The notes below the pieces were generated by a model. That model made no database searches. It saw only the letters and a program-made list of their open reading frames with translations, and was not told the DNA's origin. The position numbers and the translations under genes were made by a program. From positions 1,860,001 through 1,924,000 of the forward strand of contig NZ_CP132294.1 in assembly GCF_030734285.1 (NCBI RefSeq): a DNA stretch of 64,000 bases, in the 5' to 3' direction. Below, piece by piece: positions 27,037 through 29,090 of this stretch (its first letter is position 1; every line of letters begins with the position of its first letter). This DNA comes from Natronococcus sp. AD-5. Lineage in GTDB: Archaea; Halobacteriota; Halobacteria; Halobacteriales; Natrialbaceae.

Positions 27037-27127
27037 CTCGTTCGGACCTCTCTCGATACTATCTTCCCGACGGGACGAAGCCGGATATACGTTGACTCTC
27101 CACCTACCTTTGACAGCGAGAGAGAGT

Positions 27128-27195
27128 CCCGCCCTTCCCGTGAGTGACGAGTGTTCCGACACTCGCTGTCGGAACCGAGAAGCGAACAGGGCGGG
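27128..27195 (+). repeat. Left-end structured region with competing hairpins
   Basis: An outer stem CCCGCCC (27128-27134) pairs with GGGCGGG (27189-27195). Inside, TTCCGACA/TGTCGGAA (27154-27161/27167-27174, loop 5) competes with CGAGTGT/ACACTCG (27148-27154/27159-27165, loop 4), since both use the same bases. Confidence 0.6.
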
Positions 27196-27329
27196 CGTGA
27201 ATCGCGTCAGCTCCGGTGACAAACCACCACCAGACTGCCAGCCCTGAGTCTCCACCAGTCGGTATCAGATTCACTTTCACTGCGGATGGCTGGCCTTCAC
27301 CACGGGTCAGTTCGAATACCAAACTGGGA

Positions 27330-28670
27330 ATGAAGCGTACCAATATGTTCACCGTGCGCCCGCTCTCCGAAGGTGGGGAGCATCTGCTCCGGGACTTGTT
27401 GGACGCTTCTGCCGCTCTCTGGAACGAAACCAACTACGAACGCCTCATGCGGTACAACGATGAAGATGGGTACGAGAGCGAGGACGTATGGGACGCCGAG
27501 ACAGGCCACCTCGAAGGCAGGTACAAAGGCGTTCTCGGTGCGTCTACCGCCCAACAGGTGATTCGGAAGAACTCAGAAGCGTGGCGTGGGTTCTTCCGAC
27601 TCAAAGAACAGTACCACAATGAATCGAACACGTCGGTCACAGAACACCCCGAACCGCCGGGATTCCGTGGCAACGAAGACGAGGGACGCCAACTCAAGAC
27701 CGTCATCCGAAACACGTCGTACACCGTCGAATGGGGCGACCGGTCCCGGCTAGAGATACTGGTCGGCAACGAGTTGAAAAACAGATACGACCACACTGGG
27801 CGTCTCCGGCTGGAAATCGCTGGTGACCCGAATTGGCCTGACTACGAAAAGCAGGGCCGATTAGACCTGTGGTACGACGAGACTGAGAGCACGTTCAGGG
27901 CTTCGCAACCCGTGACTGTTTCTGACGATGTACGGGCAACTCCACTGGCCTCAGAAAAGGCCGCTCTGGACATCGGTGCGAATAATCTCGTCGCCTGTAC
28001 CACCACGACCGGTCAGCACTATCTGTACGAGGGTCGCCAGTTGTTCCAGCGATTCCGGAACACGACGCGCCATATTGCCGAGTTACAGTCGAAACTCGAA
28101 GATGGCCGATACAGTAGCGAGCGTATCCAGCGGCTGTACCGCAAACGCACCCGTCGCCGCGACCACGCCCAAGAAGCATTGTGTCGTGATCTGCTGGACC
28201 GACTGTACGCCGAAGGCGTCGATACCGTGTATATCGGTGGCTTGACCGACGTGTTGGACACGCACTGGTCGGTCGAAACCAACGCCAAGACGCACAACTT
28301 CTGGGCGTTCAGGCAGTTTACCGAGCGACTGGTGTGTACCGCCGAGGAGTACGGTAGCTCTGTTGAGGTTCGGTCGGAAGCATGGACCAGCCAAGAGTGT
28401 CCACAGTGCGGGGGCACTGACCGAACGACGCGGCACCAGGACACGCTCATCTGTCCGTGTGGGTTCGAGGGCCACGCCGACCTCACGGCGTCAGAGACGT
28501 TCTTGGAGCGGCAGACAGACCAAGCAGTCAGGCCGATGGCACGGTCCGTGCGGTTCGAGTGGGACGACCACGACTGGTCGGAGTCACCACGCTCTCACCG
28601 TCCCAAAGACCAGCGCACAGACCCGAGTACCGTCGATCGTGACGGGAATATTGCCCCCGGGGTGACGTAG
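27330..28670 (+). CDS. tnpB: TnpB RNA-guided nuclease-like protein (IS1341 type)
   Basis: Probable RNA-guided endonuclease or its catalytically altered relative, 446 residues. RuvC-I shows Asp214 in ALDIGANN; the zinc ribbon has Cys357, Cys360, Cys375 and Cys377; RuvC-III shows Asp384 in GHADLTAS. The RuvC-II position, normally a Glu in an EDL motif, reads YIGGL (301-305), so the standard Glu is missing; Glu316 in SVETN is a possible substitute. The frame is open to 27216, but the sequence before [12 protein letters not shown] shows no family similarity. Downstream DNA can form the 3' hairpin of a guide RNA. Confidence 0.9.
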
Positions 28671-28730
28671 ACCGGCTGAGACTCCCACGGAGGAAACCGC
28701 GCCGTGAACGGCGCGGAGGATGTCATGAGT
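28560..28730 (+). ncRNA. Likely omega RNA / sense-overlapping transcript at the tnpB 3' end
   Basis: The end of tnpB and the right end are the usual site of the guide RNA. A perfect 7-bp hairpin CCGCGCC-GTGAAC-GGCGCGG (28697-28716) lies just after the stop codon. In Halobacterium, sense-overlapping RNAs are known from IS1341-type genes. The 5' boundary given here is approximate. Confidence 0.5.
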
Positions 28731-29090
28731 ATCGGTCAGTTACGATCGACGCGGGAGTCGGGGAGCGAGAGCGGACCCGCGCCAGCTTGCGAAGCGTAGC
28801 GTTGACCGCAGCGTCGCGGCTCCAAGCCGTCGCCGTTCGACACTACGGGTTACCCACGACCACCCTCTGCTTTTGCGGCTGATCGGACGAACGTGTCGGA
28901 CGTATTCACGAGCCCGGCTGGGCCCAGCGTCCCGGGAGCACAGCGAGGACGGCGTGTTCTGTCCGACTCGACGGTGATCGTCCTCGAAGTCGTCGAAGGT
29001 GCGATGACCGTCGGTCGGTGAGACGGCGGCGCAAGCCACCGCGTTGCTGAGAACGCAAGGGGTTTAGGCGCTGTTTCCTAACAGAGGGAT
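28731..29090. other. Region without a recognised gene
   Basis: About 360 bp between the IS right end and trxB. The reading frames here have arginine- and serine-rich translations with no family resemblance. The last 50 bp hold the trxB promoter (GTTTAGG near 29062-29068) and a small hairpin CTGTT-TCCT-AACAG (29071-29084). The rest may be decayed coding DNA. Confidence 0.5.

Follow-up and report, generated by a model that had tools for sequence, protein, structure and literature searches.

The stretch of DNA analyzed here (64,000 nt, hereafter the window) carries a tnpB gene whose product lacks the glutamate expected in the RuvC-II motif, E(D/N)L. This raises the question of whether the protein has decayed, binds its target without cutting it or has a rearranged active site. 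The preliminary description had reported an intact zinc ribbon together with Asp214 and Asp384, a RuvC-II motif that reads YIGGL, and Glu316 in SVETN, 13 residues further on. All of these were found at their places, with Gly303 at the column of the missing glutamate.

A tnpB gene without the canonical RuvC-II glutamate

Two sources, 391 genomes of the class and the public genome collection, supplied the close relatives of the protein, and the 99 distinct full-length copies with at least 60% identity were taken as the close copies. The features of the gene are as follows:

27330..28670 (+): tnpB, 446 aa, predicted Ealt-type RuvC; reading frame without internal stops
27969..27971 (+): Asp214, RuvC-I (D-I-G, in ALDIG); Asp in 99/99 close copies (GAC 65, GAT 34)
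28236..28238 (+): Gly303, in YIGGL (301-305), the canonical RuvC-II glutamate column; Gly in 99/99 close copies, Glu in the 23 canonical TnpBs of the 136-row alignment presented below
28275..28277 (+): Glu316, in SVETN, a rejected candidate; Glu in 82/99 close copies
28377..28379 (+): Glu350, putative alternative RuvC-II glutamate (Ealt), in E-x6-CxxC; Glu in 99/99 close copies (GAA 62, GAG 37)
28398..28460 (+): zinc ribbon C357, C360, C375 and C377; invariant in a 71-row alignment
28479..28481 (+): Asp384, RuvC-III (in HADL); Asp in 99/99 close copies (GAC 87, GAT 12)

The protein exceeded the cut-offs of the Pfam families OrfB_IS605 (PF01385, 103.4 bits against 30.5) and Cas12f1-like_TNB (PF07282, 48.3 against 26.3), and scored 148.5 bits with NCBIfam guided_TnpB (NF040570, cut-off 100). 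D412, located in the conserved C-terminal tail of the haloarchaeal group, was invariant (97/97 rows). Four other TnpBs of the same genome had motifs readable by pattern, and all four were canonical (L115, L117, L119 and L123).

Gly303 is a trait of the family

Glycine occupied position 303 in every close copy and was encoded by four different codons (GGT 44, GGC 38, GGG 15 and GGA 2), which ruled out a chance point mutation. It was also present in 18/18 intermediate relatives (26-44% identity by that alignment), a hand-picked subset of a longer list that was fetched after the 136-row alignment presented below. The suspicion that the missing glutamate may be a family trait rather than a sign of decay was thereby borne out. 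That the window protein is an individually decayed point mutant of a canonical TnpB has practically no probability left and was rejected: the whole clade has Gly303 together with Glu350, and nothing was found in favor of such a mutant.

As a separate observation, in-frame stops were present inside tnpB in several close copies (L044, L062, L081, L088, L097, L100 and L105), indicating that single copies of this family often decay.

Glu350 as the probable replacement of the canonical glutamate

According to the preliminary description, Glu316 could move in for the missing residue and so give a rearranged site. This residue was indeed Glu in 82 of the 99 close copies; the other 17 carried a different residue, mostly Lys or Arg, with D214, E350 and D384 intact (e.g., L011, L020, L025, L049 and L070). 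The same column held Lys in 14 of the 18 intermediate relatives; the remaining four each had a different residue (Glu, Asp, Ala or Thr). These substitutions ruled out Glu316 as the substitute and refuted it as the general mechanism of the family, so that we regard a takeover by the SVETN glutamate as very improbable. The idea of a rearranged active site was upheld as the most probable explanation, with Glu350 instead of Glu316 as the residue concerned. This other acidic residue in the predicted RuvC-II role, the kind of finding that the preliminary description had set against its own proposal, was recognized by sequence and not by measured geometry.

Two more acidic residues were rejected as substitutes. 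Asp310 was acidic in most close copies, yet Ser, Gly, Lys or Asn in some. Glu340 was invariant in the close copies, but conserved in 111/136 rows of the wider set, and lay at a helix end in the structure model.

Glu350 was Glu in 18/18 intermediate relatives as well as in all close copies. Invariance alone is weak evidence for it, because 72 of the 446 columns were invariant among the 99 close copies, including that of the acidic E340. The exchange between two glutamate positions is stronger evidence. We have assembled 136 distinct TnpB-like ORF rows from the collected loci, using as filter a recognizable zinc ribbon, which is blind to either glutamate. In 113 rows (Ealt), Glu stood at the 350 column and Gly (112) or Ser (1) at the 303 column, while the 23 others (Ecan) had Glu at the 303 column and Pro, Ala, Arg, Gln or Ser at the 350 column. 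Rows with both glutamates or with neither amounted to 0/136 in this alignment-based count. This offers a simple sequence test, since within the archaea sampled the two glutamates were never together and never both missing.

The Ealt rows are not all independent, as 106 of the 113 had >50% identity with the window protein over the aligned part and 7 were distant; the 18 intermediate relatives obtained later all fit the Ealt side and add to the distant rows. A 43-row tree was computed with both trait columns masked, by a quick method, with some long branches and with archaeal but no bacterial rows. A single branch parted the 20 Ealt from the 23 Ecan sequences (SH-aLRT 96).

Structure model

An AlphaFold2 (AF2) model was obtained from the 71-row alignment (mean pLDDT 79.5). 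D214 lay within strand 209-215, and strand 297-303 ended with G303. E350 followed two residues past strand 344-348, in a region with a pLDDT of only about 70, and D384 fell at the beginning of helix 383-396. The model could be superposed on AsCas12f (8dzj; Z 24.0, rmsd 4.8, 366 residues), ISDra2 TnpB (8h1j; Z 21.1, rmsd 5.5, 336 residues) and mimivirus Fanzor2 (9b0l; Z 18.2, rmsd 4.8, 358 residues aligned). When a profile of 8 Ealt segments was compared with AsCas12f, the Ealt glutamate fell opposite a proline and the Gly column opposite the E of MEDL.

The element and its omegaRNA

The tnpB gene belongs to an element with the following parts:

27104..28725 (+): whole tnpB-only IS200/IS605 (IS1341-type) element; left end CTACCT..., right end ...GGAGGATGTCA
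27104..27329 (+): non-coding leader from the left end to tnpB; no divergent small gene in the window copy
28630..28645 (+): omegaRNA helix 1, overlapping the ORF end; 4/5 pairs changed on both sides, 92.3% of cells paired
28697..28716 (+): omegaRNA 3' terminal hairpin; 6/8 pairs changed on both sides, 95.9% of cells paired
28726..28745 (+): presumed guide, the host flank past the right end; length assumed, edge taken from the element boundary

The blastn alignments with related loci began mostly at 27103/27104 or, where the leader was of another type, close to the start of the ORF; they stopped at 28725/28726, and the flanks outside were unrelated. Between 27104 and 28725, tnpB was the sole gene, with no tnpA inside. 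The locus is a complete tnpB-only IS200/IS605 element of the IS1341 type. Its right end finishes in a TCA-type sequence, as does that of ISDra2. The CTACCT at the left end is a candidate transposon-adjacent motif. The sole Y1 transposase found in this genome adjoins a TnpB on the second contig (G000:C2:182479-182838 and G000:C2:181262-181948), and this transposase is a possible helper in trans.

Sixteen nucleotides of the presumed guide (28727-28742) had one exact match in the genome, the element's own flank, and one more place with 2 mismatches, on the second contig. A search with the downstream flank among 9 genomes of the genus yielded no usable empty donor site.

Within the last 105 nt of the element, two helices covaried, 10 of their 13 pairs being altered on both sides. 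The alignment comprised 64 of 89 usable copies (~25 unused), in which the window copy stood in for L120; 16 copies whose terminal hairpin has a large insert and 2 that lack the end motif were excluded. The cells were paired in 94.6% of cases against a mean of 73.0% in shuffles, and 122 cells had double changes against 29.1. On four of five measures, 0/500 shuffles reached the observed value, and 13/500 did so for the count of double-change pairs. Synonymous codon entropy was 0.31 in codons 391-420 and 0.26 in codons 421-446, compared with 0.45-0.68 in codons 31-390 (0.37 in codons 1-30), and this fall at the ORF end is consistent with an RNA that covers the last part of tnpB. When folded thermodynamically on its own, the window RNA did no better than shuffles (z 0.13), so the support for the structure comes from covariation. 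Taken with the codon constraint, the covarying hairpin that extends to the right end points to an omegaRNA over the 3' end of the gene, as is typical of TnpBs, which would use the adjoining flank as guide. Sense RNAs over the 3' end of tnpB are also a feature of the IS1341 sotRNA/omegaRNA loci of H. salinarum, and haloarchaeal omegaRNAs of such a layout are already known (PMC12558985 and PMC8303175).

No Rfam family reached its gathering score in the 64-kb window. A sub-threshold match to HgcC covered the omegaRNA (28641-28738; 25.4 bits, E 0.0008, gathering score 50), with similar weak matches in L036, L091 and L120, the latter being the window copy itself. HgcC may be an omegaRNA-like family, which we note as a weak lead. 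The 16 copies with the insert (L009, L018, L047, L068, L080 and others) carried it in the loop of an otherwise conserved terminal hairpin; it measured ~40-50 nt in most and had hairpin-like arms of its own in the sequences inspected.

Membership of the Ealt clade

PMC10711439 defines Ealt by a glutamate that six residues separate from the zinc-finger motif (E-x6-CxxC). It presents a tree in which Ecan and Ealt TnpBs clearly separate, the Ealt side being split into a D-Phi-G clade and a DPG clade that includes the Fanzors. The window protein has D214-I-G at RuvC-I and E350 followed by C357xxC360, with Gly303 at the canonical position, and this combination assigns it to the D-Phi-G/Ealt clade; its group also formed a branch separate from the canonical TnpBs in our tree. 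Judged by its sequence, it is thus a TnpB of an already described kind. Like the Ealt D-Phi-G TnpBs of PMC10711439, it combines D-I-G, the absence of the canonical glutamate, the E-x6-CxxC glutamate, the zinc ribbon and the RuvC-III Asp. No tested feature distinguished it from them, and the haloarchaeal group has its conserved C-terminal tail.

The alternative glutamate position and the overall fold are also shared with pro-Fanzor TnpBs and Fanzors (SpuFz1 and mimivirus Fanzor2). However, the DPG mark of this lineage at RuvC-I was absent from the window protein, which has DIG, and the window element is tnpB-only. With ISDra2 TnpB it shares the domain order, the fold and an omegaRNA at the gene's 3' end, whereas ISDra2 has the canonical glutamate instead of Glu350. 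In the literature searched, with many journals outside its coverage, we found no description of haloarchaeal Ealt proteins or of the upstream small genes presented below, and no biochemical test or cleavage data for the haloarchaeal Ealt clade.

Predicted activity

We consider it very probable that the window protein is an Ealt-type TnpB with a D214-E350-D384 metal site, guided through its omegaRNA by the right flank and cutting the empty donor site. In the proposed mechanism, the RuvC-II glutamate would have been relocated to Glu350, just past the strand that comes after the usual RuvC-II strand, 7 residues ahead of the first zinc-ribbon cysteine. There it would replace the canonical column-303 glutamate and complete the metal site. 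The omegaRNA would derive from the terminal part of the tnpB transcript, with the flank past the right end as guide, and the RNP would recognize the empty donor site and cut it through D214-E350-D384. Such cutting would favor copying the element back and help to keep it in place.

The preliminary description had offered, as its other reading, a protein that binds guide and target without cutting. TldRs are nuclease-dead TnpB repressors defined by the loss of RuvC catalytic residues; in the window protein, D214, E350 and D384 are present, and they are invariant in the close copies. A transcription repressor of the TldR or Cas12m2 type, that is, a nuclease-dead RNA-guided DNA binder, would fit the absence of the canonical glutamate, and Cas12m2, with an H-D-D site, binds without cutting (PMC10442227). 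This binding-only relative, however, has an altered triad, whereas all three acidic positions of the window family were under purifying selection, where drift would be expected in a dead enzyme. Against a repressor also stand the location of tnpB in an element of a mobile, multi-copy kind whose ends are defined and which retains its omegaRNA, and the 16 guide nt, whose exact match was confined to the element's own flank. With the three acidic positions fixed while most of the protein varies, and in view of the mobile multi-copy locus, we judge a nuclease-dead binder unlikely, its chance being small though larger than that of a Glu316 takeover. Alternatively, purifying selection could act on D-E-D through a role in processing or binding RNA rather than in cutting DNA.

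Relocation of the glutamate does not preclude nuclease activity, since SpuFz1, a Fanzor, cuts dsDNA; its E541, D383, N385 and D606 hold two Mg ions (PMC10432273). E541 probably is the Ealt residue, judging from what PMC10711439 says on Fanzors. Hence, the window protein is most likely an active Ealt nuclease, as predicted from its residues. A likely misreading is corrected in this way, as the lack of E(D/N)L does not suffice to call a TnpB nuclease-dead; the E-x6-CxxC position has to be checked first. Changed side activities with the relocated glutamate have been suggested for pro-Fanzors (PMC10711439), and small, salt-adapted Ealt nucleases with a visible omegaRNA would be material for asking whether the relocation alters such activities.

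Small genes upstream of tnpB in related elements

The accessory small genes of the relatives are a more unusual by-product of the analysis than the glutamate finding. Among 161 loci with a match, 103 had enough upstream sequence to be used (58 were skipped), and 62 of these carried one of three unrelated genes of 45-75 aa on the opposite strand, just before tnpB. The types encoded proteins of 47 aa (36 elements), 45 aa (20) and 75 aa with CxxC/CxxC (6), the window copy being a form without one. Sixty of the 62 genes could be read from a start codon, in most cases ~32-59 nt from that of tnpB. None of the small genes had a Pfam or NCBIfam family above cut-off.

Median dN/dS was 0.15 for the 47-aa type (164 pairs) and 0.45 for the 45-aa type (59 pairs). 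The AF2 model of the 47-aa protein (pLDDT 85.7) showed an extended start followed by two helices. Its best Foldseek matches had E-values of 3.7 or worse; ribbon-helix-helix proteins were among them, and this fold assignment is a guess.

Homology upstream of the 47-aa and 45-aa types reached or neared the CTACCT-like left end, where checked, which places the small gene within the element. It is conceivable, if on the doubtful side, that an exchangeable accessory slot exists in the haloarchaeal Ealt tnpB elements and that the small genes in it perhaps serve specifically to repress or inhibit tnpB or its RNP. In that case, the clade would provide a natural collection of TnpBs whose small controllers can be swapped. 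Examples of the 47-aa type were seen in L009, L013, L037, L039, L043 and L066, of the 45-aa type in L092, L101 and L114, and of the 75-aa type in L040 and L080.
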